Assembly (NCBI GenBank): GCA_015068705.1
Contig: SVJZ01000003.1
Span: 62,001-126,000, forward strand
DNA: 64,000 bases
Direction: 5' to 3'
Source: Oscillospiraceae bacterium
Lineage (GTDB): Bacteria; Bacillota; Clostridia; UMGS1810
Shown: positions 6,821 to 26,301 of the stretch, one piece after another
Numbering within the stretch: the first letter of the stretch is position 1
How the letters are laid out: the number at the start of each line of letters is the position of its first letter
Notes under the pieces: model-generated
Databases searched by the model: none
What the model was told of the DNA's origin: nothing
Seen by the model: only the letters and a program-made list of their open reading frames with translations
Translations under genes and position numbers: made by a program

Positions 6821-8803
6821 TTATCCCGAATATTCGTATCGCTTGATGATATGGTTCTGATACTCCACATCGATTTCGTTGAAATACCCACTCCATCCCC
6901 ACACACGGACAATGAGGTCAGGATGTTTTTCGGGATGCTTTTGTGCATCCAGCAAGGTATTGCGGTTTAAGGAATTGAGCTGTAACTGATGCCCGCCCAG
7001 CTGAATATATGCCTTTACCAGTTGCGCCACTTTTTTGATGCCCGTATCGTTTTTTAATACCGAATCGTGGATTTCTATGGTAAGTGGACCGCCGTTTATG
7101 ATATCTGTCATATCAAACTTTGTAAAAGACGCCATCACAGACAACAGACCGGCAGGCGCCACGCCGGGTGACGGGGAAAAGCTGGAGGAATACGCCTCAA
7201 AGTCGCCTCTGCCATCAGCAGTAGCCGGGCACGCATAGCCCTTATAGATATATTCCATGGCACTTCCTGTGCCGGCACGCCATATACCGCCATACGGATG
7301 TTTTCGATGGTTCATGGAACTTGCAAATGCGCCCATCAGCTCGGAAGCAATCTCATCTACATAATCATTATTATTCCCCATTTTTGGGCTGTTTTTTAAT
7401 CGGTTTCGCAACGGGACAACCCCCTCAAAATTTACCGAAAGGGCTTTGAGCAGAAGTTCTTTTTTGATGCTTTTTTCATCATAGATATTCTTTTTTACTG
7501 CCGCGAGGGCATCGGTTGCATTGGCAATCCCTGCACCGTGGCAGCCGTAATTCATATATTTTGCACCACCCCGACGCATATCTGAAAGAGATTCGATGCA
7601 GCCATCCACAAACAGGGATAGCAGCGGGCAAAGCGGTGTGATGTAATCTTCCCGCTCTGCTGCCAGTTTAGCCGATTCGTCACAAATTTCTTGTTTCACA
7701 TAAGACATCAGTTGTTCAAAGGTCTGACAATGTGTCAGGCGCGTCTTAATGACCCGATCCACCACCGCCGGGAAATCCATTACATGAAAATTTGGGATGT
7801 CTGCACCGCGGTTTGGGATGATATACTCCCAGCAGGCAGCAACGGTATAATCCAGCGCATCTTGTCTGTCATAGCCCAATTTTACAAGACCCGGCACAAC
7901 CACATCATCGTTGCAGTACTGCGGAAACCCAAGCCCCTGCTTGGTAAGGAGGGTCGCAAACTCATAGATTTCATCGGGCGTGTTTTTGCCCACACGCAGA
8001 TTGATTTTGGGGTCAATCAGAGAAAGGGAAAGGGAGGCTTGCATACAAAGGTGAGAAAGGGGATTGTACATACTGTTTCCGTTTTGGTCAAAGCCACCCA
8101 AAACCAGACTCTGCCCGTTGTCCCCCTGTTGCATACCGTGATAAAGGTCGGTGTCATAATTTAAGGAGATAAAAAATTCTTCTATCAGTTCCAAAAGCTG
8201 TTCCTGGGTGCTACCTTCCTCTTTTGCCTTCTCATAATACGGATACAGATATTGGTCAAACCGTCCCAACCCGATGTGTGATGCCCCGTAAAGACGCAGG
8301 CAAAAAATGATAAATTTCATAAATACCAACGCCTCATACAGGGTGTCGGCACCCTTTCGGGGTATTTTTTCCAATGCGCAAGATAGTTTGGTATTTCCTG
8401 CTTTTTTTGCATTTTCACGGCATTGATCCGAGAGTTCTATGCAGATTTGAATGAGTGAGAGCAGGAGATTTCCGTATTCAAGTTTTTGGCTATCGTCGGT
8501 TTGGGACATGCTTTGGCGGATTTGATGGGCGGTTTGGTCAAATCCCACAGATACAATTCTCATATAGTTTGGTGTGATATTTCCTTCCCGCACCGGCGGA
8601 TGAAAATCGGTAGATCGGTTAAAGCCAAACGAATCGTCGGGAAATACACGGGGGTGCTCTGCGTTTGCGGCTTTTTGAAAGAGGACTACCTGCTTTTTCA
8701 TGTCGAAATCATCCGGCTCAAACGGGATGCTTACCGATAATCGTTCGTTTTTGTAGGTTGCTGATTTTAAAAAGGCTAACAATGTTTCGATTCTCTTTGT
8801 CAT
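6821..8803 (-). CDS. Glycyl radical enzyme, PFL/dehydratase superfamily (GRE A)
   Basis: 660 residues from ATG 8803, preceded 6 nt upstream by GAGGTG (a GTG at 8812 overlaps the activase stop). The C-terminal glycyl loop is RVWGWSGYF (Gly about 636). The mid-protein thiyl loop is AACWEYIIP (Cys about 324, Glu about 326), giving the C-x-E arrangement of dehydratase/eliminase GREs rather than the Cys-Cys of pyruvate formate-lyase. It is shorter than typical members (about 780-850). It follows its activase by 5 nt and precedes the glycosidase-like gene. Substrate unknown; carbohydrate-derived is likely from context. Confidence 0.85.
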   Translation of the reverse strand: MTKRIETLLAFLKSATYKNERLSVSIPFEPDDFDMKKQVVLFQKAANAEHPRVFPDDSFGFNRSTDFHPPVREGNITPNYMRIVSVGFDQTAHQIRQSMSQTDDSQKLEYGNLLLSLIQICIELSDQCRENAKKAGNTKLSCALEKIPRKGADTLYEALVFMKFIIFCLRLYGASHIGLGRFDQYLYPYYEKAKEEGSTQEQLLELIEEFFISLNYDTDLYHGMQQGDNGQSLVLGGFDQNGNSMYNPLSHLCMQASLSLSLIDPKINLRVGKNTPDEIYEFATLLTKQGLGFPQYCNDDVVVPGLVKLGYDRQDALDYTVAACWEYIIPNRGADIPNFHVMDFPAVVDRVIKTRLTHCQTFEQLMSYVKQEICDESAKLAAEREDYITPLCPLLSLFVDGCIESLSDMRRGGAKYMNYGCHGAGIANATDALAAVKKNIYDEKSIKKELLLKALSVNFEGVVPLRNRLKNSPKMGNNNDYVDEIASELMGAFASSMNHRKHPYGGIWRAGTGSAMEYIYKGYACPATADGRGDFEAYSSSFSPSPGVAPAGLLSVMASFTKFDMTDIINGGPLTIEIHDSVLKNDTGIKKVAQLVKAYIQLGGHQLQLNSLNRNTLLDAQKHPEKHPDLIVRVWGWSGYFNEIDVEYQNHIIKRYEYSG

Positions 8804-8808
8804 GGTCT

Positions 8809-9657
8809 TCACCTCAAAAGTTTGGTTTTGATATGATATGCTTCAAAAATTTCTTGATGGATTTGCACATCTGCATGTTGGTCAAATCCCGGTGTATAGG
8901 TTCTTCCCACTGACCGGTATTTTCCGCCCGCCATTTTGTTATACGATAAAAGCTCTGCGTAGGTTACCCCGCATTGGTTGAGCAGTCCTGCGATGGCGCC
9001 AAGATTTTCTTTGGTGTCTGTTACCGAGGGAATGAGAGGGATTCGGACAACAAACTCCCTGCCGCTTTTGGCGAGGGTGATGAAGTTTTTGAGGATAATT
9101 TGGTTGGAAACGCCGGTAAATTGCTTGTGTAAATCATCATCCATGAGCTTTAAATCGTAAAGAAAATAATCTGCCTTTTCCAACACCTGTCCAAACAAAT
9201 ACTCCTCACAATATCCACAGGTTTGAATTGCGGTGTGAAGCTTGCCTTTCAATTCTTCCATGCACGCAAACACAAATGCACTCTGACTCAAAGGCTCACC
9301 ACCCGAAAAGGTGATGCCACCCCCATCTTGTAAGATGGTCTTGTGCTTCAAAAGTTTCTCGCAAAGTGCAGGGGCGGTGTAATGCTCTCCGCACATCCGA
9401 AAAAGATTTGCAGGACAAGTGTCCATGCATTCTTTGGAGTACACCCGTTTGTCATGGAAGGTTGTTGCATACTGCTCGCAGTTGCCACAATTCAGGCAAC
9501 CGTTTGGACTTTTTATCATTTCGGGATAAAACTCCTGCCCCTCGGGGTTGTGACACCAACTGCAACGCAATGGGCACCCCTTTAAAAAAACGGTGGTTCG
9601 GATTCCCGGTCCGTCATAAACCGAAAATTCTTCTATAGAAAAAACCATACCCTTCAT
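8809..9657 (-). CDS. Glycyl-radical enzyme activating enzyme (radical SAM)
   Basis: A 282-residue radical SAM protein. It begins with the activase signature YDGPGIRTTVFLKGCPLRCSWC, in which CPLRCSWC binds the SAM-ligating 4Fe-4S cluster. A ferredoxin-like insert follows (CLNCGNC and later C-P-A-N), then ITFSGGEPL for SAM contact. It installs the glycyl radical on the adjacent GRE. ATG 9657 has AGGAGG 7 nt upstream. It is the first gene of the minus-strand operon and divergent from an AraC regulator. Confidence 0.92.
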   Translation of the reverse strand: MKGMVFSIEEFSVYDGPGIRTTVFLKGCPLRCSWCHNPEGQEFYPEMIKSPNGCLNCGNCEQYATTFHDKRVYSKECMDTCPANLFRMCGEHYTAPALCEKLLKHKTILQDGGGITFSGGEPLSQSAFVFACMEELKGKLHTAIQTCGYCEEYLFGQVLEKADYFLYDLKLMDDDLHKQFTGVSNQIILKNFITLAKSGREFVVRIPLIPSVTDTKENLGAIAGLLNQCGVTYAELLSYNKMAGGKYRSVGRTYTPGFDQHADVQIHQEIFEAYHIKTKLLR

Positions 9658-14347: not shown

Positions 14348-14383
14348 AAATGCTCGTCTATTAAAAATAGGCGGGCATTTTTT
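14348..14383 (+). terminator. Intrinsic terminator of spoIVB
   Basis: AAATGCTCGTCTATT (14348-14362) / AATAGGCGGGCATTT (14366-14380) with G-U pairs and a T-run. Confidence 0.85.
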
Positions 14384-14387
14384 ATAG

Positions 14388-14521
14388 AAAGGAGGAATTT
14401 TTGAACAAAGTAATGTTACATTTATGTTACATTTTTATCTGAGTGGTTAGATTTGGATGTTTTTTACCGTTATTACCTTATGAAGGGGTAAATTTATAAT
14501 AAAAACAAAGGAGGAATTTTT
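14388..14521 (+). repeat. Direct repeat of a ribosome-binding-site block flanking an AT-rich stretch
   Basis: The 15-mer AAAGGAGGAATTTTT occurs at 14388-14402 and 14507-14521. The first copy is followed by TTGAACAAAGTA and a stop soon after, so no gene follows it now. The second precedes the recombinase ORF. The sequence between is AT-rich and carries a doubled TGTTACATTT. This may mark the left edge of inserted DNA. Confidence 0.5.
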
Positions 14522-14522
14522 A

Positions 14523-16928
14523 ATGTGTTATAATAATGCTAAAAAAGCAAACAGGAGCGAGGCAATGGCAAGAAAAAGCAAATATGAAGAAAACAACAAA
14601 CTAAAAAAGGAGGAAAATAATATGACTAAAATAGGTATTTACGCTCGATTATCTGAAGCGGACGGTGACAATTGTATAAGTGAATCTATCAAAAACCAAA
14701 TTTTATTAGCAGATAGTTATATTAACGGACTTGCAGACACAATATGTGTGAAAACATATATTGACGACGGATATACGGGGCTAAATTTTGAAAGGCCAGC
14801 ATTTAGCGAAATGATGTCCGATATACAGTCCGGAATTATCAACTGTGTAATCGTTAAAGATATTTCGCGATTAGGAAGAAACTATATTGAATTAGGAGTT
14901 CTCTTAGCTGTAGATTTCAAACGAATGAAGGTCAGATTTATAAGCATAAACAATCAGTATGACAGTATAAATGATTCTGACGACCTTCCCGGTATTGGGG
15001 TGATATTGCAAACCGTTGCGGATAATCAAGTGTCAAAGGATACTTCGAAAAAGGTGTCTTCCTCAATTTCCGGCAAAATATCATGCGGTGAGTTTATTCC
15101 ATCTTCAAGCAGTATTCCTTATGGATATTTACGGGATTCAGAAAATAATACATATGCCATTGACGATGAAACATTTATAGTCGTGAGAAAAATATATTCA
15201 ATGAGGGCTGACAATTCCAGTATTTCTGCCATTGTGAACTACTTAAATGCTGAAAATGTTCCAAGCCCCGGAAAGCTTCGATATATGAGAGATATGACTA
15301 CAGATGAAAAACTAAAAGAAAGCCAATGGAACAGAACAACAGTAAGAAAAATATTAAATGATGTTTCTTATATCGGCAACAGAGTTCATGGGAGAAAGAA
15401 AAAGGAAACTTGTGATTCTGTTAAAAAGCGTACTTCTAAGGACGAATGGACTGTCATTGAAAATGCTCATCCTGCAATTATTTCTAAAGAATTGTTTGAT
15501 AAGGTACAAGCAGTAAATAATAACGAACTTCAAAAACTTGCAAAACAAGAAGCTAGAGCTGAAGTTGAAGCAGATTTCCGTGAAATGTTAAGAGGCAAGC
15601 TGTTTTGTGCTGATTGCGGTGGTGCTATGATTGCAAAGAAAAGTTCGGCTAAAACGGATTCAAACAAGTCAAGTTATATTTATTATGAGTGCAGTAAATA
15701 TTATTCAAACCATAACCATTGTAATGTTCACTATGTTAGAGAAGATACGATTGTGTCTAAAATTACATATTTACTAAATCATTATGCAGACATATGCATA
15801 TCTACAGAGTATCAAAAAGCAGAGTTAATTCCGCACAAAAATAGTCTGGTAAATATACGAAAAGAGATTCTATCCATGCTCAACGCAAAGGATTATATTA
15901 TTTATAAACTGACCGGACGGTTTGTAACCGATTATTCGGATGCATCCGGCACCTGCCTGATGGATTTGAACACATTGGAGTGGTCGGACACCCTGTTTGC
16001 CCTGTCGGGGCTTGACAAGGGGAAAATGCCCGACATTTTGCCCTCTGTGGAAGTGGCAGGTAAGGTTACCAAAGAGGCGGCAGCACAGTGTGGCTTGATG
16101 GAAGGAACGCCTGTAGTTTGCGGCGGCGGTGACGGTTGTTGCGCCGCGGTAGGAACCGGTGTGGTAAAGGAAGGGGTGGCAAATTGCTGCCTGGGTACCT
16201 CGTCCTGGATTTCGCTTGCAACTAAAAAGCCCATATACGATGAAGATATGACCACCTTCAACTTTGCACACATTGTACCGGGGTACACCATGCCCTGCGG
16301 CACCATGCAAACCGGCGGTGGCGCGCTCAGCTGGGCGGTGAGCAATCTGTTTGCACCGGTGGATGGATATGCGGCGTATGACAAGCAGGATATCTATGAT
16401 TGTGTAAACAAAGAGGTTGCCCTATCTCCGGTGGGAGCAAAAAATCTGTTTTTTCTGCCCTATCTGATTGGAGAGAGAAGCCCTCGTTGGGACGACAAAG
16501 CAAAGGGTGCATTTGCAGGACTTACCTTAAATCACGGGCGGGGCGATATGTTGCGCGCGGTGATGGAGGGTGTGGGATATAATCTGGAGCTGATTTTATC
16601 TGCATTTCGCAAAAGCGGCAGCAGTATTGACAATTTAATCTTAATTGGCGGCGGTGCCCGAAACAAGGTGTGGCGGCAGATTCTGGCAGATATTTTGGGG
16701 GTTACGGTGCGCATCCCCGACGATCTGGAAGAAGCCACCTCCATGGGTGCGGCAATTACTGCAGGTGTGGGTATTGGTGCGTTTGAAAGCTTTGATGTGG
16801 CGGAAAAATTCATCCGCATTCAGCAGCAAAACACCCCCAACCCGTCCGTTGCATGCGCATATGACAAACAAAAAGCACGATTTGATGCGTTGTATCATTC
16901 GTTAAAACCCGTATTTGAAACCATGTAA
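14523..16928 (+). CDS. Chimeric ORF: large serine recombinase fused in frame to a truncated xylulokinase-type FGGY kinase
   Basis: An 801-codon open frame made of two unrelated parts. Up to about codon 449 it is a large serine recombinase. Its best start is ATG 14622 (AAAAAAGGAGG upstream), with the resolvase motif YARLS (catalytic Ser 11 from there), DISRLGRNYIELG, a recombinase domain and a zinc-ribbon (CADCGG...YYECSKY). The remainder, from LNAKDYIIYKLTGRF, is an FGGY xylulokinase-like protein (TDYSDASGTCL, CGGGDGCCAAVGTG, LIGGGARNKVWRQILADILG) lacking its first 130-150 residues, including the N-terminal ATPase-fold half. The recombinase lacks its C-terminal end. Base composition changes from AT-rich to GC-rich at the join. 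Kinase activity is unlikely. Confidence 0.85.
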   Translation: MCYNNAKKANRSEAMARKSKYEENNKLKKEENNMTKIGIYARLSEADGDNCISESIKNQILLADSYINGLADTICVKTYIDDGYTGLNFERPAFSEMMSDIQSGIINCVIVKDISRLGRNYIELGVLLAVDFKRMKVRFISINNQYDSINDSDDLPGIGVILQTVADNQVSKDTSKKVSSSISGKISCGEFIPSSSSIPYGYLRDSENNTYAIDDETFIVVRKIYSMRADNSSISAIVNYLNAENVPSPGKLRYMRDMTTDEKLKESQWNRTTVRKILNDVSYIGNRVHGRKKKETCDSVKKRTSKDEWTVIENAHPAIISKELFDKVQAVNNNELQKLAKQEARAEVEADFREMLRGKLFCADCGGAMIAKKSSAKTDSNKSSYIYYECSKYYSNHNHCNVHYVREDTIVSKITYLLNHYADICISTEYQKAELIPHKNSLVNIRKEILSMLNAKDYIIYKLTGRFVTDYSDASGTCLMDLNTLEWSDTLFALSGLDKGKMPDILPSVEVAGKVTKEAAAQCGLMEGTPVVCGGGDGCCAAVGTGVVKEGVANCCLGTSSWISLATKKPIYDEDMTTFNFAHIVPGYTMPCGTMQTGGGALSWAVSNLFAPVDGYAAYDKQDIYDCVNKEVALSPVGAKNLFFLPYLIGERSPRWDDKAKGAFAGLTLNHGRGDMLRAVMEGVGYNLELILSAFRKSGSSIDNLILIGGGARNKVWRQILADILGVTVRIPDDLEEATSMGAAITAGVGIGAFESFDVAEKFIRIQQQNTPNPSVACAYDKQKARFDALYHSLKPVFETM
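15855..15895. other. Junction between recombinase and xylulokinase sequence
   Basis: Upstream of about 15870 the codons are AT-rich and recombinase-like; downstream the composition and protein family switch at once (NIRKEILSM to LNAKDYIIYKL). No inverted or direct repeat was seen exactly at the join. Confidence 0.7.
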
Positions 16929-16942
16929 AGGAGTGTATTACC

Positions 16943-17926
16943 ATGAAACAATCCACATTATTTGCGGCATTGCCCGAATATGTTGCAACCCCTGACGGTA
17001 TGACCATTGACAAAGAGGGCAATCTTATCCTCGCCTGCCCCAACTATGCAGACCAGAGCCTGCCGGGGTGTATTTTAAAGATAGACAAGGACAAAAACAT
17101 CCGCAAATGGTTCGATGTGCCGGTGCATGAGGAAACCGGTCTTGCCTCCCCCATGGGCATTGCGTTCGGACCGGATGGCGATTTGTATATCTGTGACAAC
17201 CAGGGGTGGCCCGGAAAACCCGAGCTGGTGCGCAAGGGCAGGATTCTGCGCGTTCGCATCGAGGGGGACAAGATTGTAAAAACCACTGTGGTTGCCAAAA
17301 ACATGGAGCATCCCAACGGCATGAGAATCCGGGACGGATACATCTATGTAACCCAGAGCACCATGGAACTGGTACAAGACCCTTCGGGGAAACTGGTCAG
17401 TTGTGTGTATCGTTTCGGGCTGGAGGATGAAAATATTGACATTACCAATACACTGGAGGACGAAAATATCCTGACCACCTTCCTGACCCAGAATCCGGAT
17501 GACCAGTATGGTGTGGACGGAATTGAATTTGATCGTGACGGAAATCTTTTGGTGGGAAATTTCGGCGATGGTGCTGTGTATAAAATCACCTTCAACGAGG
17601 ATTTGTCGGTAAAATCAAACGAAATCTGGGCGCAGGACAAGGAAAATCTGGAAAGCACTGACGGTATGATTATGGATGCTGAGGGCAATTTATATATTGC
17701 AGATTTTTGTGCCAATGCGATTGTAAAGGTTGCACCCGATGCCACCGTGACCAAGCTCTGCTGTAACGGGGATACTGACGGATTAAACGGCGAACTGGAC
17801 CAGCCGGGTGAGCCTATTATCTGGAACGGCAGACTGGTGGTATCCTGCTTTGACGTGGTGACCAGTGATATTGTGCTCAACACGGCGCACGAGCTGCCCG
17901 CAACCCTTGCGGAGATTCAACTGTAA
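16943..17926 (+). CDS. SMP-30/gluconolactonase family beta-propeller protein
   Basis: 327 residues, six-bladed propeller type, with repeated strand motifs: TPDGMTIDKEGNLILA, SPMGIAFGPDGDLYICDN, HPNGMRIRDGYIYVTQS, GVDGIEFDRDGNLLVGN and STDGMIMDAEGNLYIADF. The family includes Ca/Zn-dependent sugar lactonases that open aldonolactones. There is no signal peptide, so it is cytoplasmic. It sits 14 nt after the truncated kinase and 17 nt before GRE B, in one operon, supporting a sugar-lactone or sugar-acid pathway. Lactonase activity is inferred from family and context. Confidence 0.8.
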   Translation: MKQSTLFAALPEYVATPDGMTIDKEGNLILACPNYADQSLPGCILKIDKDKNIRKWFDVPVHEETGLASPMGIAFGPDGDLYICDNQGWPGKPELVRKGRILRVRIEGDKIVKTTVVAKNMEHPNGMRIRDGYIYVTQSTMELVQDPSGKLVSCVYRFGLEDENIDITNTLEDENILTTFLTQNPDDQYGVDGIEFDRDGNLLVGNFGDGAVYKITFNEDLSVKSNEIWAQDKENLESTDGMIMDAEGNLYIADFCANAIVKVAPDATVTKLCCNGDTDGLNGELDQPGEPIIWNGRLVVSCFDVVTSDIVLNTAHELPATLAEIQL

Positions 17927-17943: not shown

Positions 17944-20100
17944 ATGACAAACCAACAAAAAGCGATGGCATCGGTTGCCGCGTCCATAAAAATGCTACGG
18001 GAAAAGCCGGTGGAGAGTGCACTGGTGGAACGGTATTTCCTGCTCTACGAGGCGTGGGAGATGGTAAAAGATCTGCCCCAACCCCTCCAACTGGGAAATG
18101 CCATGTACCACATCCTTTCCAAGGCATCTCTGCCCATTTTAGAATATGACCTTTTGCTGGGCAGATTTGACGATCATGTGCCCACTCCCGAGGAGCAGGC
18201 GCAGCTGGAGAAAATATGGAGTGAAATAAACCTTTATGAAAACCCCATTACCCGGCACAATTTTGGGCACACCACCCTGGATTGGAGTGGGGTGGTTTTT
18301 GAGGGGATTCCTGCGCGTATCCAAAAGTGCGAGGAGAAAATCCGGCTTGCCAAAGAAAGTGGCGAGGACAAAAATGTGCTGAATTTTTTGGAGGGGATGT
18401 GCCTCATATACAAGGGCATTTTGCGTTACATCGAGCGGTATGGGGAGCAGGCGAAGAGGGCAGGCATGGAAGATTGTGCCGCCGTATGCCAAGCTCTTAC
18501 CGAAGGTGGTGCCAAAACTTTTCGCGAGGCATTGCAGATGATTTTGTTTGTCTACAACATCCATCTCATTTATTCGGGCGCGGGTGTGGACTGTGTTTCG
18601 GTGGGGCGGTTGGACAATGTGCTCCTGCCCCTATACCTCACTGACCTCAAAGAGGGCAGACTGACCCGGGAAGAGACTGGGTATCTCATTGACGATTTTT
18701 CTGCAAAAATGAGCCTGCATCTGGGCAGAGGTGAGCACCAGATGGCGTATCTCAACGAGGATTATTATCACACCGGATGGGATCGCAACCATGTGTTTGA
18801 TTCGCCCGGTTACATTGTGCTGGGCGGTTACAGCAACGGCGGTGACCACTGTGAAAATCCGCTTACCCTGCTCTTTGCAGAGCACATTCATCCGGGACTG
18901 AAAAACCCCGTATATATCTGCCGTCACACTCGTGACCGCAGTGATGCGTTGTGGGATATTTTAAGCGAAAAAATCCGAAGCAATGCGTCCATATTGATTT
19001 ATAATGATGAAACCATGATTCCTGCCCAACGCCACATCGGTGTGGAGGCGCAGGATGCGGTCAATTACGGCATCCATCCCTGCAACTGGCCCGACATTGA
19101 CGGGGGCGAGGTGGTGGACATGGTGGGCGGACCCATCCCCCATCTCATCAACCGCGTGTTGGAAGAACATGCGAAAATTGGTAGTATGGAAGATATCTAC
19201 CGCATGATGGCAGAGCAATTCCGGAAAGAACTCGCCCCTTGCTTTGCGACCTACCGAAAAAAATATCGGGGAGCACTCCTTCCCTCCGACGGTCGGCTTA
19301 CCATGACCGACTGCTTTTTGAAAGGTCCGCTGGAAAAAATGCGGAGTATGGACTTGGGCGGAGCCAAATACCCTGCCGTATATGTGCTGGTGCGAAACAT
19401 CGGCACCGCAACCGATATGCTTTGTGCGGTTGAACAGGTGGTCTATGAGAAAGGGCAGTGTACCTTATCCGAATTGGTTGGGGCAACAGAAGATAATTTT
19501 GAATCCCGCCCCGACCTGCTTGCGGCATGCAAGCAAGCCCCCAAATACGGCACCGACAACCCCAAAGCAGATGCAGTGATGAAACGGATTATGAATCTGC
19601 TGTTAGATGTTACCGACGAGGAAGCGACAAATAGCGACGGGGTGCGTGATGTGGTTACCTTAAACATTGCCTTAAACGACTCCAACCATCTGGCGGACGG
19701 CAAGGAAATGGGGGCGACAGTAGATGGAAGACGGGCAGGCGAGCCGTTGAGCGAAAATCTTGCACCTTCAGTGGGAAGTGCTCCTGCGGTGACCTCCTTG
19801 CTCAATTCTGTGGCAAAGCTCCCCTTTGACCGGATTCATTCGGGCGTACTCAATGTGAAACTGTGCCCGGGTGAAAAGACGGATGCGACGTTGATTAAGC
19901 AGCTCATCGACACCTATTTTGGTGAGGGCGGAATGCAGTTGCAGTTTAGTATCACCGATAATGAAACCTTGAGAAGAGCGCAGCAAACCCCGGAGCAGTA
20001 TCGGGATTTGCTGGTGCGCATTACCGGCTACAGTGCAGTGTTTGTGGATATGTCCAAGGACGGGCAGGAGGAATTTATCCGCCGTGAGGAAACCAAATAG
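17944..20100 (+). CDS. Glycyl radical enzyme with atypical cysteine loop (GRE B)
   Basis: 718 residues of the PFL/dehydratase superfamily. The glycyl loop RITGYSAVF (Gly about 695) is canonical. The thiyl loop NYGIHPCNWPDIDGG puts Cys at about 380 but has Trp (382) where dehydratases carry the catalytic Glu of C-x-E. Blocks VSVGRLDNVLLP and PGYIVLGGYSNGGD are family-like. It is followed 19 nt later by a second, dissimilar GRE and then one activase. It does not match the motifs of choline, glycerol, propanediol or hydroxyproline lyases. The reaction is unknown. Confidence 0.85.
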   Translation: MTNQQKAMASVAASIKMLREKPVESALVERYFLLYEAWEMVKDLPQPLQLGNAMYHILSKASLPILEYDLLLGRFDDHVPTPEEQAQLEKIWSEINLYENPITRHNFGHTTLDWSGVVFEGIPARIQKCEEKIRLAKESGEDKNVLNFLEGMCLIYKGILRYIERYGEQAKRAGMEDCAAVCQALTEGGAKTFREALQMILFVYNIHLIYSGAGVDCVSVGRLDNVLLPLYLTDLKEGRLTREETGYLIDDFSAKMSLHLGRGEHQMAYLNEDYYHTGWDRNHVFDSPGYIVLGGYSNGGDHCENPLTLLFAEHIHPGLKNPVYICRHTRDRSDALWDILSEKIRSNASILIYNDETMIPAQRHIGVEAQDAVNYGIHPCNWPDIDGGEVVDMVGGPIPHLINRVLEEHAKIGSMEDIYRMMAEQFRKELAPCFATYRKKYRGALLPSDGRLTMTDCFLKGPLEKMRSMDLGGAKYPAVYVLVRNIGTATDMLCAVEQVVYEKGQCTLSELVGATEDNFESRPDLLAACKQAPKYGTDNPKADAVMKRIMNLLLDVTDEEATNSDGVRDVVTLNIALNDSNHLADGKEMGATVDGRRAGEPLSENLAPSVGSAPAVTSLLNSVAKLPFDRIHSGVLNVKLCPGEKTDATLIKQLIDTYFGEGGMQLQFSITDNETLRRAQQTPEQYRDLLVRITGYSAVFVDMSKDGQEEFIRREETK

Positions 20101-20119
20101 TCAGAAAAGAGGGATTGCC

Positions 20120-22120
20120 ATGCCTGATTTATCAAAATTAAAAGAACTGATATTTGAAACGGATGACAATGCCTGCTTTATTGAGCGGGAGCGCATACTT
20201 GCGCGGCTGGATAAGGAAATGGCAGATTACAACGGTGCCGACAAGCAAGCACGGGTGTTTGCCACCTTGCTGTCGGAGGTTTCCACGCCGGTTTATGCGT
20301 GTGACTATTTTGCCGGACGTGTGGTGGAGGGATTGCCGGATGAAGGAATGAAAGCGCCGAGCATATTACTGGAAGCAACCGGTCACATGAGTTTTGATTA
20401 TGAAAAGCTTTTGCGTGTAGGGCTGAAAGGTATTCTGGACGAAATTTGCGCGGTTGCCCATAAAAAGGGCGATGATGCATCGTTGCAATTTTCCGACAAT
20501 GCGCGCATTTTGGTAGATGCCATCCGTGACTTTGCCGTTCGTTATGCCGATGAGGCGGAGCGTATGGGGCGCGAACGCATGGCAAAGGCGCTGCGCATCG
20601 TGCCGTTTGAGCCGGCGTACGATTTTTATTCGGCGTTGCAGGGAATATGGCTCATTCATATGATTGCAAGCTGCTATGTGGGCGCGCGGGATTATGCGTT
20701 TGGTAAGTTTGACGGGTATATGGAGACGTATTACCATAAGGCACTTGAAAACGGAGAAACAAGAGAAGAACTTGCCGAATTGCTGGCAGGATTTCTGGTT
20801 AAAACAAACGAAATTTGCGGCAGATGTGCATATGATTACCGCACAAAGCCAGTTTTATCATTTTCGTCAAAACAATATGTAAATATCGGCGGAGAGGTGC
20901 CCAATGAATTTTCGACGGTGGTGCTGGATGCGGCAATGCGTTCCAACATGGCACAGCCGGAGATTACTGTGTTGCTAAAACCCGATGCAGATACGGCGTT
21001 TACCCAAAAGGTCTTTGAGGCGCAAAGCGTACTGACCGATAAAATGAATATTTACAACTATCCTGCCACTGTTGCGGCATTTATCAACATGGGCATTGAC
21101 GAGAAGATTGCAAAGGATTATACCTACTCTGCCTGCTGTACGGTGGATTTGCACTATCACACCTATCGGCGTGAGTATTACGTTCCGGTGCCGCAGATAC
21201 TCATTCAAACGCTGGAGGGTGGGGATTACACCAGTCTTGAAGAGGTGCTGGAAGCATTTCGGCACAGGTTGTGCGCTGATATGCAACACAATGCCGACGA
21301 GGAGCAGCAGGATCGCACCCAAGCCGAAGGAAAATATTTTTTGTTGGATGCACTTTTGATGCCCGACAGTGCAGTCGAGTGTCGGTATCCGTGTGATGGA
21401 ACATCACCCTACAATCTCCTTAATCTCTTTTGCCCGGGCATTGCCACGGTGGGCGATTCGCTGATGGTGCTCGACAAGCTGGTGTTTGAGGAAAAGCGAT
21501 ACACATATCGGGATTTTATCACCATTGTTCGTAACAATTTTGAAAATCACGAGGAACTGCGGCAGGAGATTTTGAATTACACCAAATTCGGCAACGACAC
21601 CGCTGCCGATAAATACACCGTGCTTGCGGCAAACGCCTTTCTTGATGCGGCGGATGCTCTGGTGTTGAAAAGGAACTTTTTTGCAGCTCCCGGCTTTTAT
21701 TCCTTGCAACGGGATAATTTCTGGGCAGGCGAGGTGGGGGCAACCCCGGATGGCAGGAAGGCAGGAGAACCATTCAGCGAAAATCAGTCCCCCACTTACG
21801 GGGCGGACAAAAACGGCATCACCGCACTTTTAAAGAGTCTTTCCAAGCTACCCTTTGAACGAACGGTGACGGGTGGGCTAAACCTTACTTTTTCGCAAAA
21901 AATGAGTCCGGACATTTTGCAGGCATTGGTACTTTCCTATTTTCAGATGGGAGGCTTTCATGTAGGGATATCGGTGGTGGATAAAGAAACCTTGCGTGAT
22001 GCCATGAGAAACCCTGACAAATACAAGAGCCTCACCGTGCGGCTTTACGGGTTTAGCGAATATTTTGTAAGCCTTGCCGAATGGCAGCAGATTGCGGTGC
22101 TCAATCGCACGGCTTATTAA
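20120..22120 (+). CDS. Second glycyl radical enzyme, Cys-Cys loop (GRE C)
   Basis: 666 residues from ATG 20120; the longer open frame to 20033 only overlaps GRE B. The C-terminal glycyl loop is VRLYGFSEYF (Gly about 644). The thiyl loop YTYSACCTVDLHYH has adjacent Cys residues (about 339-340), recalling the Cys-Cys of pyruvate formate-lyase, but the surroundings (TVDLHYH) are unlike PFL. It is short for the superfamily. Two unlike GREs in tandem with one activase suggest either successive steps on one substrate or a hetero-oligomer in which one chain is catalytic. Neither can be decided from sequence. Confidence 0.85.
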   Translation: MPDLSKLKELIFETDDNACFIERERILARLDKEMADYNGADKQARVFATLLSEVSTPVYACDYFAGRVVEGLPDEGMKAPSILLEATGHMSFDYEKLLRVGLKGILDEICAVAHKKGDDASLQFSDNARILVDAIRDFAVRYADEAERMGRERMAKALRIVPFEPAYDFYSALQGIWLIHMIASCYVGARDYAFGKFDGYMETYYHKALENGETREELAELLAGFLVKTNEICGRCAYDYRTKPVLSFSSKQYVNIGGEVPNEFSTVVLDAAMRSNMAQPEITVLLKPDADTAFTQKVFEAQSVLTDKMNIYNYPATVAAFINMGIDEKIAKDYTYSACCTVDLHYHTYRREYYVPVPQILIQTLEGGDYTSLEEVLEAFRHRLCADMQHNADEEQQDRTQAEGKYFLLDALLMPDSAVECRYPCDGTSPYNLLNLFCPGIATVGDSLMVLDKLVFEEKRYTYRDFITIVRNNFENHEELRQEILNYTKFGNDTAADKYTVLAANAFLDAADALVLKRNFFAAPGFYSLQRDNFWAGEVGATPDGRKAGEPFSENQSPTYGADKNGITALLKSLSKLPFERTVTGGLNLTFSQKMSPDILQALVLSYFQMGGFHVGISVVDKETLRDAMRNPDKYKSLTVRLYGFSEYFVSLAEWQQIAVLNRTAY

Positions 22121-22202
22121 AAAATATCAACACAAAAAGCCTTGACGGAGCAGAAGAAACGTGGGATAATTGCATTGAACGAGAAATGAGGGGGGAACAA
22201 TC

Positions 22203-23036
22203 GTGACGGGTGAGATATTCAATATCCAAAAATTTTGTGTCAACGATGGACCGGGCATCCGCACCACGGTGTTTTTCAAGGGATGTCCTCTATCTTGCGT
22301 GTGGTGCCACAACCCCGAGAGTCGCAGTGTGAAAAAGCAGATATTATGCTATCCGGACAAGTGTGTGGGATGTGGCAGATGCGCACATCTTACAGTGGAT
22401 ACCCCCGACTTCTTTTGTCCAAATGGTGCCAAGGAAATCTGTGGCAGGACTGTTTCGACAGATGAAGTAATTGCCGAGGTGATGAAGGACAAGACGTTTT
22501 ATGAAAATTCGGGCGGTGGCATGACCCTGTCGGGTGGCGAGCCACTCTTTCAACCCGAATTTGCGCTCGAATTGCTCCAGAAAGCCAAGAAAGAGGGGTT
22601 ACATACCGCCATCGAAACCTGTGGCTTTGCTGCAAAGGACACGCTGAGAAAAATCGCGGCATATACCGACCTGTTTTTATTTGATTTCAAGGAGAGCGTT
22701 CCTGCACTGCACCAGCAGTTCACGGGAGTGGACAATCGCGTGATACTGGAAAATCTGAAGCTTTTGGATGAATTGGGCAAGGATATTGTGTTGCGCTGTC
22801 CCATCATACCCGGCTATAATGCGCGCCCTGACCACTATGCAGCAATCGCGCGTGTGGCGGAGAAGTTTAACCACATCATTGGCGTGGATATTGAGCCATA
22901 TCATTCGCTGGGTGAGGGAAAATACCGCGCGCTCGGCAAGGATGTGCCCGAAATTACCATGCCGGTAAAAGAGGAAGTGGACACAGTGATTGCCGATATT
23001 CAGTGCAAAACATCTGTTCCGGTACGGAAGGGATAA
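22203..23036 (+). CDS. Glycyl-radical enzyme activating enzyme (radical SAM)
   Basis: A 277-residue activase starting at GTG 22203 (GAGGGGG upstream). Motifs: NDGPGIRTTVFFKGCPLSCVWC for the SAM cluster, a ferredoxin-like cluster motif CVGCGRC with a later FCPNGA, and MTLSGGEPL. It is the only activase near GREs B and C, so it likely serves both. It is the last gene of the operon, followed by a terminator. It is related to but distinct from the activase at 8.8-9.7 kb. Confidence 0.92.
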   Translation: MTGEIFNIQKFCVNDGPGIRTTVFFKGCPLSCVWCHNPESRSVKKQILCYPDKCVGCGRCAHLTVDTPDFFCPNGAKEICGRTVSTDEVIAEVMKDKTFYENSGGGMTLSGGEPLFQPEFALELLQKAKKEGLHTAIETCGFAAKDTLRKIAAYTDLFLFDFKESVPALHQQFTGVDNRVILENLKLLDELGKDIVLRCPIIPGYNARPDHYAAIARVAEKFNHIIGVDIEPYHSLGEGKYRALGKDVPEITMPVKEEVDTVIADIQCKTSVPVRKG

Positions 23037-23133: not shown

Positions 23134-23162
23134 TTGACAATGGGTACTGCGAGTGCTACAAT
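23134..23162 (+). promoter_or_regulatory. Promoter of the amidohydrolase gene
   Basis: TTGACA (23134-23139), 17 nt, TACAAT (23157-23162), 38 nt before the ATG. The gene is therefore transcribed separately from the GRE operon. Confidence 0.8.
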
Positions 23163-23200
23163 GCGCTTGTAAACATAATTTCTCCAAGGAGGAGAGGGCG

Positions 23201-24778
23201 ATGAAGCAGAGAAAGTATTTTGAAATTTTTGCGCGTGAGGGCCGTCCTACTGTGCCGAACAAGGATTATCCCTATCAACATGAGGTTTTGCTGGAAGATA
23301 TGAAATATGCGAGAGTGCATGGTGCGGCAATTTTTGAAAATATCGGTTTGGAGCAGTATGTTGTGCAGGCAAACAAGAATGCGCTGCGCATCGCCGGCGA
23401 ACAGTCGCGCCTGTTTGCACTGGCGGCGGTCACTCCCACTACGCCGATGGAAACGGGTGAACCGGACTATTTTGAACGGTTGCTCCAGAGCGGTGTACGG
23501 GGTTTTGTATTGGCGTGTCCCGAAAAGCATCCTGATTATCTGGATGAAATTGCCGAGGTGCTCATACGCTACAATCGTCCACTCATTTTTGTGCACTGTA
23601 ACCCTGCTGAAAAACTCTTTCAGATTGCGGCAATCGCCGAGGCGTATCCCAAATTGAATATTATCATGTATGGCATTCACTGGGGCGCGGCACGGGTGTT
23701 TTTCAAGACCATGAAACGTTACCCAAATCTGTATTTTGATTTTTCCTCCAATCAACTCAATGATATTCTGGAGCTGAGCAAAAAACATTTTGGCATCGAG
23801 CGGGTTCTTTTCAGCAGTGCATGGCCATACAGTAGCATGGCAGCCATGAAAGCCATGGTGGAATATGCGGACCTTACCGAAGAGGAAAAGGATTTGGTGG
23901 CACATGGGAATGCCTGCCGTCTGTTTGGCATTTCGCCGGATGAATTGGAGTTGTATGATGATTCCATTTGTGAATTTGACACCATCGCAGCCGAGGCGGA
24001 TGCAGGATTGCCCATCTCGGTTCCGGTGATTGATGCGCACACCCATATTGTGGGCGGCGGTGCGCCGGTAAACTATTTTATGCCCAATCCCGATCCGGAT
24101 TCCATGGCAAAGAAAATGGACCGGATGGGTGTGGATACCACCATTACCGCACCGTGGACCGGACTTGCTTACGAGGGATCCGATGCAAATAACGAAACAA
24201 TAGGTGCGGCGAAAAAGCATCCTGAAAAATTCCTGGGTTATTCGGTGTGTAATGTCAATTACCCCGGAGATGCAGAGGCGGTAATCCGGACACACGAGGA
24301 AAACCCCGACCTGTTTGTGGGCATCAAACCCTATCCGCCGTATCAGAAATTCCGTCATACCGATGAGATTTGTGCGGATTGGTATGCCTATGCCAATGAG
24401 CACCATCTTCCTGCGCTCATCCACACCGCGTGTGATGATTTTGCTGAGCAGGTGGATGAGATGGCGGATCGTTATCCCAATGTAACCTTCATCATGGCAC
24501 ACACCGGTGCGGATTATTTCAACGCACGCAAAAACATTGCCGTTGCCAAAAAGCACCCCAATGTGGTGCTGGATATCACCTACACCTCCACGGCACGCGG
24601 CATGGTAGAATTTCTGGTGAGCGAGGTTGGTGCAGAGCGGGTGATTTACGGTTCGGATGCGCCCATGCGTGACCCGTCGCCTCAGCTGGGTTGGGTGTGC
24701 TATGCACGCATCAGTGAAGAGGATAAGAAAAAAATTCTGGGCGGTAATATCAAACGCATTATGGAGCAGAGAATTTAA
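23201..24778 (+). CDS. Tandem amidohydrolase-2 (metal-dependent hydrolase) protein
   Basis: 525 residues from ATG 23201 (AAGGAGGAGAGGGCG upstream). It holds two amidohydrolase TIM-barrel copies. The second (from about 275) has the full metal set: DAHTH (278-282), ALIHTACD, FIMAHTGADY and VIYGSDAP. The first (1-265) keeps barrel landmarks (FVHCNP, IIMYGIHWG, RVLFSSAWP) but lacks the N-terminal H-x-H and the late metal-binding Asp, so it is probably inactive. The family includes decarboxylases and lactone or ester hydrolases acting on aromatic or sugar-derived acids. Substrate unknown; it follows GRE cluster B but has its own promoter. Confidence 0.78.
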   Translation: MKQRKYFEIFAREGRPTVPNKDYPYQHEVLLEDMKYARVHGAAIFENIGLEQYVVQANKNALRIAGEQSRLFALAAVTPTTPMETGEPDYFERLLQSGVRGFVLACPEKHPDYLDEIAEVLIRYNRPLIFVHCNPAEKLFQIAAIAEAYPKLNIIMYGIHWGAARVFFKTMKRYPNLYFDFSSNQLNDILELSKKHFGIERVLFSSAWPYSSMAAMKAMVEYADLTEEEKDLVAHGNACRLFGISPDELELYDDSICEFDTIAAEADAGLPISVPVIDAHTHIVGGGAPVNYFMPNPDPDSMAKKMDRMGVDTTITAPWTGLAYEGSDANNETIGAAKKHPEKFLGYSVCNVNYPGDAEAVIRTHEENPDLFVGIKPYPPYQKFRHTDEICADWYAYANEHHLPALIHTACDDFAEQVDEMADRYPNVTFIMAHTGADYFNARKNIAVAKKHPNVVLDITYTSTARGMVEFLVSEVGAERVIYGSDAPMRDPSPQLGWVCYARISEEDKKKILGGNIKRIMEQRI

Positions 24779-24894: not shown

Positions 24895-26301
24895 ATGAAT
24901 GCATACAAAAACACCTATTGCAATCCCATGAAGGTGGAAAATTACCCCATGGGCTATGAAGCCCCCGACCATCGCTCGCTGGCAGACCCGAGCGTGATTT
25001 ATTATGAGGGCAAATGGTATATGTACCCCAGCTATGGCATGGCGTATGTGTCGGAAGATTTTATAACATGGAAGCACCACCCCATTCAGCCGGTGGATAT
25101 TGGTTATGCACCTACCGTGGTGGTACATAAGGGCAAGATTTACCTGTGTGCAAACGGCGATAGCGCTATGCTCTATGTGGCAGACAATCCGCTCGGACCA
25201 TTTGAACAGGTGGGGCATATGTGTTATCCGAACGGTGAAAAGGTGGACGGTCCGGACAAAATGCTCTTTTCGGACGATGATGGTCGCCTGTATTTGTATT
25301 TTACCCAAAATTTTACCGATAAAGAGAGTGGCATCGCCATCTATGGTGTGGAGCTGGACGGCGACAACCCTACCAAGGCATTGACCGACCCGATACACCT
25401 GATCGGATTTCACCCCGAGCACACCTGGGAATGTTTTGGCGCACGCAGTCAGCACAAGGGGCTTGGATGGATCGAAGGCGCGTGGATGGTGAAAATCAAC
25501 GGGCGCTATTACCTCACCTATTCGGGTAGCGGTACGGCATTCGGCACCTATGCGACCGGCGCGTATTACTCGGACGAAGGTCCGCTTTCAGGCTTTGTGT
25601 ATCAAAAGAGAAATCCCATCTGCTCGCGCAACTACGGATTGACCCGTGGCGGCGGACACGGGAGTATTGTGGAGGGACCCAACGGCACCTACTGGTCATT
25701 CTACACCATTCCCATCAGCTATTCCTTTAAGTTTGAACGCCGCATTGGTATGGACCCGATTGAGGTGGACCAAAATGGGGAGATTATGATGGTTACCAAT
25801 ACCGATACCCCGCAATGGGCACCGGGCGCAGTGGCAGACCCGTATCATAACGGGGCGACCGATTTGGTGCCGCTGACCATCAATATGCCGGTATATGCGT
25901 CGGGCAGTGCACCGGGCAGAGATCCGCTCTATGCGGTGGACGAAAACCTGCAATCCTGGTGGCAACCGGCGGCAGAGGATGACGAAAAGAGCCTTACTGT
26001 TGATTTGCGAGGAAGTTATCTGGCATCGGCAATGCGCATCATCTGGCGTGATGTGAATATCAACATCGCCGAGGGTCGATGCCCCGGCGCATTCCAATAC
26101 AAGGTGGAGGTTTCCACCGACGAGAAAAACTGGGTGACGGTGGTGGATAAAACCGCCAACACCACCGACTATGCGGTGGATTATGAAACCTTTGAAACGG
26201 TGCCGGCAAACTTTGTACGCCTTACCGTTACGGGAACCCCTGAGGGGATTGAGGCAGGCGTGATTGACTTTACGGTGTTTGGGAAATATCCGCAAGAATG
26301 A
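24895..26301 (+). CDS. GH43-family glycoside hydrolase with C-terminal discoidin (F5/8 C) domain
   Basis: 468 residues without a signal peptide. The N-terminal five-bladed propeller shows the GH43 acidic residues: base Asp in SLADPSVIYYEGKWYMYPS, the pKa-setting Asp around VDGPDKMLFSDDDGRLYLYF, and the acid Glu in WIEGAWMVKINGRYYLTYSG. The last about 135 residues (from ASGSAPGRDPLYAVDE to the end) form an F5/8 type C carbohydrate-binding fold. GH43 enzymes act on arabinose-, xylose- or galactose-containing glycans. The lack of a secretion signal suggests imported oligosaccharides. Confidence 0.87.
   Translation: MNAYKNTYCNPMKVENYPMGYEAPDHRSLADPSVIYYEGKWYMYPSYGMAYVSEDFITWKHHPIQPVDIGYAPTVVVHKGKIYLCANGDSAMLYVADNPLGPFEQVGHMCYPNGEKVDGPDKMLFSDDDGRLYLYFTQNFTDKESGIAIYGVELDGDNPTKALTDPIHLIGFHPEHTWECFGARSQHKGLGWIEGAWMVKINGRYYLTYSGSGTAFGTYATGAYYSDEGPLSGFVYQKRNPICSRNYGLTRGGGHGSIVEGPNGTYWSFYTIPISYSFKFERRIGMDPIEVDQNGEIMMVTNTDTPQWAPGAVADPYHNGATDLVPLTINMPVYASGSAPGRDPLYAVDENLQSWWQPAAEDDEKSLTVDLRGSYLASAMRIIWRDVNINIAEGRCPGAFQYKVEVSTDEKNWVTVVDKTANTTDYAVDYETFETVPANFVRLTVTGTPEGIEAGVIDFTVFGKYPQE

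Follow-up and report, generated by a model that had tools for sequence, protein, structure and literature searches.

This analysis concerns two adjacent glycyl radical enzyme (GRE) genes, here called B and C, in a 64,000-nucleotide stretch of an Oscillospiraceae bacterium genome (assembly GCA_015068705.1, contig SVJZ01000003.1, positions 62,001 to 126,000 of the forward strand; hereafter the window). The source assembly comprises 1.77 Mb in 36 contigs and is 93% complete. GRE B (17944..20100, 718 amino acids) and GRE C (20120..22120, 666 amino acids) have intact open reading frames (ORFs); C is correctly read from the ATG at 20120, which matches its orthologs, the GTG at 20033 of the mechanically called ORF being wrong. 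They lie between a gene for an SMP-30/gluconolactonase-like protein (16943..17926; SGL domain match of 54.9 bits), the hub gene of a conserved neighborhood, and one for a radical S-adenosylmethionine (SAM) GRE activase (22203..23036; Radical_SAM domain, TIGR02494 at 303.6 bits, above cut-off). Ahead of SMP-30 lies a C-terminal fragment of an FGGY (xylulokinase-like) kinase (15877..16928), recognized by tblastn to a Ructibacterium ortholog, and an amidohydrolase and a GH43 glycosidase follow the activase. All of these are encoded on the plus strand, with the first four complete genes closely spaced.

Cysteine loops of GREs B and C

Both proteins match the Pfam domains PFL-like (187.6 bits for B and 199.9 bits for C, cut-off 24.3) and Gly_radical (67.0 and 67.2 bits). 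The glycyl residue of B is G695 in the loop RITGYS (20026..20028, plus strand), and that of C is G644 in the loop RLYGFSEYF (22049..22051, plus strand). With a glycyl loop, a thiyl Cys and both domains, B and C are genuine GREs, and activation is predicted to place a glycyl radical on each. They share 23% identity. Their AlphaFold models (mean predicted local distance difference test scores of 84 for B and 77 for C) match solved GREs across nearly the full length. Glycerol dehydratase (1r8w) was the top PDB match for both models, and the close structural matches, 1r8w, CutC, PflD and YbiW, are eliminases.

Alignment on the thiyl Cys placed the loop of B at Cys380-Asn381-Trp382-Pro383-Asp384 (19081..19095, plus strand) and that of C at Cys339-Cys340-Thr341-Val342-Asp343 (21134..21148, plus strand). 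The position two residues after the thiyl Cys (Cys+2), where the Cys-X-Glu (CXE) motif has its Glu, holds Trp382 in B, Thr341 in C, Gly in a subfamily called D and Glu in a subfamily called W. All 13 B rows, drawn from 12 loci, have the loop CNW[PVI]D, and all 9 C rows have the loop SACCT[FV]DL (counts that include a few contigs present twice, in two collections), so these loops are not noise or chance. At Cys+4 there is an Asp in all B and C sequences (Asp384 in B, Asp343 in C) and a Glu in a further GRE, L021, and no reference GRE in the alignment has an acid there. On an extended loop the Cys+4 residue could point to the side that Cys+2 faces, which would mean a relocated acid, not a lost one.

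Elsewhere in the active site, His109 of B (18268..18270, plus strand) and His89 of C (20384..20386, plus strand), each invariant in its subfamily, align with the eliminase His (His164 of glycerol dehydratase, His160 of HypD), and the Asp447 of diol dehydratases is kept in neither protein. GRE W keeps the CXE Glu and has Asn at the His164 position. The Cys pair of C consists of the thiyl Cys339 and the next residue, whereas that of pyruvate formate-lyase (PFL) consists of the thiyl Cys and the preceding residue; this shift of one residue in register makes the resemblance between C and PFL superficial.

Subfamily D (L019:15960-18020, L030:3606-5741 and L031:4608-6674) has the loop N-S-C-M-G, with no acid at Cys+2 or Cys+4, and its genes adjoin an aldolase gene, deoC, in L019 and L031 and GRE C in L030. 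A first look at four other Clostridia genomes (G066, G087, G092 and G096) gave 14-19 GRE candidates per genome, and many of the GREs read there were short, with a varied Cys+2 (C-Y-E, C-N-E, C-N-R).

Comparison with characterized GREs

A maximum-likelihood tree was built with Escherichia coli PflB, TdcE, YbiW and PflD, HypD, CutC and the propanediol dehydratase of the source genome as references. It was built without isethionate sulfite-lyase, benzylsuccinate synthase and arylacetate decarboxylases, which were distant PDB matches only (16-21% identity). The B and C sequences formed separate clades (100/100 each) that joined with L021 in a single clade (98/99) apart from every reference, and neither B nor C clustered with any characterized GRE in this tree. 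On sequence grounds, B and C each represent a subfamily, the two being distant relatives within one new clade of compact GREs. The L021 GRE (720 amino acids, Clostridia genome G096) is like C in its sister position, its Cys+4 acid and an activase that falls in the C-linked clade, but differs in its loop, C-N-R-A-E, and in its neighbors, an aldo/keto-reductase-like gene and its own activase.

NCBIfam equivalogs for HypD, CutC, HpfG/HpsG, HPAD and indoleacetate decarboxylase gave B and C 96-201 bits against cut-offs of 1000-1150, including 163 (B) and 145 (C) against 1050 for CutC, and 189 (B) and 179 (C) against 1100 for HypD. The PFL equivalog TIGR01255 gave 83 bits for B and 74 bits for C against 994. 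These cut-offs and the tree together argue against membership of B or C in a tested characterized GRE family. HypD shares with them the GRE fold and the His160 equivalent, but scores far apart as above and has the CXE Glu that B and C lack.

Much of the original prediction for this locus holds: it contains two dissimilar GREs that both keep the glycyl loop, and Cys380/Trp382 and Cys339/Cys340 sit in loops unlike those of PFL, TdcE, YbiW, PflD, HypD, CutC and propanediol dehydratase. The claim that the catalytic Glu has been replaced is right for the position itself. To call the Glu missing is perhaps too strong, as the invariant Cys+4 acid could substitute for it, which comes close to the scenario the prediction itself had named as counting against it, a neighboring residue filling the role of the Glu. 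The PFL-like Cys pair proposed for C falls to the register shift.

Conserved gene neighborhood

GRE-based searches of 391 genomes of the same class found three B relatives (40-45% identity) and two close C relatives (62%). A full core of zinc dehydrogenase, FGGY kinase, SMP-30 and DeoC genes accompanies B in G087 and C in G091, SMP-30 adjoins B in G042, and an SMP-30 fragment adjoins C in G092. Counted over these GRE-first searches, the core or an SMP-30 fragment stood beside 2/2 close C relatives, and SMP-30 or the whole core stood beside 2/3 B relatives, the third of which is on a 3.7 kb contig.

An SMP-30 alignment scan of 84,980 species genomes returned 80 loci, at up to 89% identity, from Bacillota, Bacteroidota, Spirochaetota, Planctomycetes and others. 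In 17 of the 80 the core has B, C, W or D next to it, and these four GRE subfamilies, described as unrelated, thus adjoin the same core; W relatives do so in L035, L066 and L068. A close complete locus, L029, with an SMP-30 88% identical to that of the window, reads DeoC, dehydrogenase, kinase, SMP-30, C and activase. Complete loci also include L035 from Ructibacterium gallinarum DSM 107454, which has C with an activase, and L039, which has B with an activase. Where SMP-30 had 3 kb or more of sequence on each side, DeoC was present in 12/12 loci with a GRE versus 21/46 without one (Fisher p = 0.0006, uncorrected for kinship, so that the value overstates independence). The core DeoC scores above the equivalog cut-off for deoxyribose-phosphate aldolase (229 versus 117 bits), and the core kinase above that for XylB, xylulokinase (412 versus 380 bits). 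Glycosidase genes of the GH31, GH3 and GH43-like types occur near some GRE loci, which is consistent with sugars from plant polysaccharides.

B and C are sparsely distributed in our searches. A single-sequence scan of the genome-contig collection with B gave no match, B searches at family and order level returned only the source genome, neither B nor C was found beyond the source genome in 399 phylum-wide genomes, and the families of G087 and G092 yielded no further B or C. In the open-access literature we found no description of a GRE neighborhood with DeoC, SMP-30, pentitols or deoxyribose. The two invariant non-canonical Cys loops mark a pair of rare subfamilies associated with a deoxy-sugar core, and are more than an isolated oddity.

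Several further arrangements were seen around the core. A GH88-like gene accompanies it (in L044, L049 and L077, for instance) in 21/46 well-covered GRE-less loci versus 1/12 GRE loci, as if the one were swapped for the other, a comparison confounded by kinship. In Akkermansiaceae and Bacteroidota, GRE-less loci with SMP-30, kinase and dehydrogenase (L071, L086, L091, L098-L100 and L102; DeoC is present in the Parabacteroides-type loci) adjoin a protein of ~850 amino acids with a hydrazine-synthase-alpha middle domain, together with small membrane proteins. L020:9225-11471 holds GRE C and an activase with a short SMP-30 fragment only, another eroded copy of the neighborhood.

Activases and co-occurrence of B and C

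In other genomes each of the two GREs is found in the absence of the other, in most cases next to an activase, and among the loci examined the two stand together only in the window. The activases formed three groups in a tree, B-linked (97/96), C-linked (98/96) and W-linked (99/98). The window activase, 64% identical to its nearest relative, fell in the C-linked group, so B either has come to use a C-type activase here or has a different activator. The original prediction of one shared activase is therefore true of the window operon, with the reservation that this activase is of C type and that B-linked activases elsewhere form a separate clade. Its proposed search for the same tandem found B with C nowhere else among the loci examined and turned up other tandems. 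In L042:4714-9114 a pair of tandem GRE B genes follows a single activase, DeoC and SMP-30, and L030 holds a C-D tandem.

The locus in the source genome

Upstream of SMP-30 the window departs from the complete neighborhoods. The kinase lacks its first ~155 residues: identity to the Ructibacterium ortholog is 60% from residue 128 by tblastn, and clear kinase homology begins at MLNAKDYII. The N-terminal part of a large serine recombinase (14523..15872, plus strand; Resolvase, Recombinase and Zn-ribbon domains by Pfam and NCBIfam), apparently without its 3' end, continues in frame into the kinase at ~15,875. The recombinase island (window 14380-15875) has a GC content of 0.34-0.39, against ~0.50 in its flanks, and recombinases 30-35% identical to that of the window occur on plasmids, some annotated DUF4368. 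The sequence around the recombinase showed no clear insertion repeats. The junction may be a real rearrangement, an insertion with deletion, or an assembly chimera. The remains of a kinase that had been proposed here are thus a truncated FGGY kinase, one that has not merely decayed and is fused in frame to a serine recombinase of 34% GC. The route appears to be broken upstream of SMP-30 in this genome, where B and C may survive as remnants or serve a different route.

Pfam found the other predicted neighbors as well. The amidohydrolase (23153..24778, plus strand), with two Amidohydro_2 stretches, has no labeled homolog in the related neighborhoods and is a candidate pathway member only. The GH43 glycosidase (24895..26301, plus strand) carries an F5/8 type C domain, and a distant GH43-like protein (27% identity) sits in the core of the Ructibacterium locus. 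The window also encodes a third GRE, W (6821..8812, minus strand; loop A-A-C-W-E, assigned by alignment and tree), with its own activase (8809..9657, minus strand; assigned by the activase tree) in a 4-base overlap, a pair on which the original prediction did not remark. The source genome has several further GREs, including one with a PFL-type loop. Its propanediol dehydratase scores 1257 bits against the Roseburia enzyme and lies in a locus (contig G000:C5, L027) that looks to be of microcompartment type.

Discussion

From the neighborhood and the active-site residues we infer, in part, that B and C are catalysts that would act on C5 compounds. In the route we propose, the activase would install the glycyl radical, and the resulting thiyl radical would abstract a hydrogen from a C5 sugar, a pentitol or a related derivative. 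Cleavage of a C-O bond, assisted by the conserved His and the Cys+4 Asp, would then give a deoxy-pentose, which the FGGY kinase would phosphorylate and DeoC would split into glyceraldehyde 3-phosphate and acetaldehyde. That B and C cleave a C-O bond to make a deoxy-pentose for the kinase and DeoC is quite possible, if still short of probable. Doubtful, in our view, is the fuller statement that in gut and rumen Clostridia several GRE subfamilies without the CXE Glu turn pentoses, pentitols or their derivatives directly into 2-deoxypentoses that the kinase and DeoC then split to acetaldehyde and glyceraldehyde 3-phosphate, so that the pentose phosphate pathway is bypassed, the acid in B and C having moved two positions. 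A sugar substrate, as originally predicted, is likely from the context; a sugar acid is less supported than the deoxy-pentose route because the conserved partner elsewhere is DeoC, which was not found in the source genome.

Several observations weigh against the deoxy-pentose route. Neither B nor C has the CXE motif, a bulky Trp occupies the Glu position in B, and the motif has been described as conserved among GRE eliminases, with the Glu essential in HypD (PMC7077986), whose activity is lost in both E436Q and H160Q (PMC7077986). AlphaFold confidence is low at the glycyl loops of B and C and at the Cys loop of C, so the models do not support side-chain placement. No adjacent GRE is present at 63/80 core loci, some of which have DeoC, which means that the deoxy-sugar has other sources or that the core has another role. 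The proposed route does not explain what SMP-30 and the zinc dehydrogenase do. In the source genome itself, the remainder of the 93% complete assembly yielded neither the orthologous kinase N-terminus nor the dehydrogenase, and one protein search of the assembly did not find DeoC. The linkage is thus seen across genomes, and a complete kinase with DeoC is not seen in the source genome.

The closest precedent for such a deoxy-sugar step also supplies a rival. YbiW and PflD open 1,5-anhydroglucitol 6-phosphate and 1,5-anhydromannitol 6-phosphate to 1-deoxyfructose 6-phosphate, a deoxy-sugar phosphate (PMC12441222), a radical ring-opening to which the proposed reaction would be analogous. B and C might therefore cleave an ether, opening an anhydro-sugar or glycoside ring, instead of dehydrating a free sugar or polyol. 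YbiW and PflD figure among the close structural matches, they share the GRE fold, an adjacent activase gene and an aldolase partner nearby (fsaA lies close to ybiW in E. coli), and glycosidase genes occur around the GRE loci. They are only 23-25% identical to B and C, however, keep the CXE Glu and do not cluster with them in the tree, and their substrates are phosphates imported by the phosphotransferase system (PTS), with FsaA as aldolase, where the B and C loci have an FGGY kinase and DeoC. We consider ether cleavage fairly unlikely. Somewhat harder to credit is that B and C are 1,2-diol dehydratases of the ordinary kind with a small diol as substrate, their acid shifted from Cys+2 to Cys+4 and their neighborhood incidental. 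Glycerol and 1,2-propanediol dehydratases (1r8w, 5i2a, 9rco) are among their best structural and sequence matches and share the thiyl Cys and the His164 equivalent, and B and C keep both this His and a Cys+4 acid; against this, neither the CXE Glu nor Asp447 is present in B and C, their N-terminal part is shorter, they share only 24-26% identity with the propanediol dehydratase of the source genome, and they are linked to the sugar core across many genomes. Carbon-carbon cleavage in the manner of PFL, without an acid/base Glu and with the second Cys of C as acyl carrier, is improbable: PFL and TdcE likewise lack a Glu at Cys+2, and all C sequences have a Cys pair, but that pair is out of register with the one in PFL, B has none, and the His of B and C is replaced by Arg in PFL, which falls outside both clades at 19-20% identity.

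Two further alternatives concern the pair in the source genome. B and C could be defunct leftovers of a pathway disrupted by insertion of the recombinase, as the truncated kinase, the missing DeoC and dehydrogenase, and the similarly reduced C, activase and SMP-30 fragment of G092 suggest; yet B, C, the activase and SMP-30 are intact, both GREs carry the residues invariant in their families, and the junction may be an assembly artifact, which together make a dead remnant unlikely. The original prediction had also raised a heteromeric GRE, a notion prompted by adjacent genes with a single adjacent activase in the window. Each protein has its own glycyl loop and Cys, and B and C do not constantly co-occur, being found separately elsewhere and usually with their own activases; on this evidence the heteromer was rejected, and we regard it as scarcely credible.

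The CXE Glu has been regarded as a hallmark of GRE eliminases, and a clade without it that otherwise preserves the site and carries an invariant acid elsewhere in the loop either widens the mechanism or signals a different chemistry. To our knowledge, the linkage of GRE, kinase and DeoC offers the first substrate hypothesis for GREs of the B, C, W and D types. It points to a new radical reaction in sugar catabolism and, if the deoxy-pentose route is true, would give gut anaerobes an oxygen-sensitive way to use plant-derived C5 compounds.

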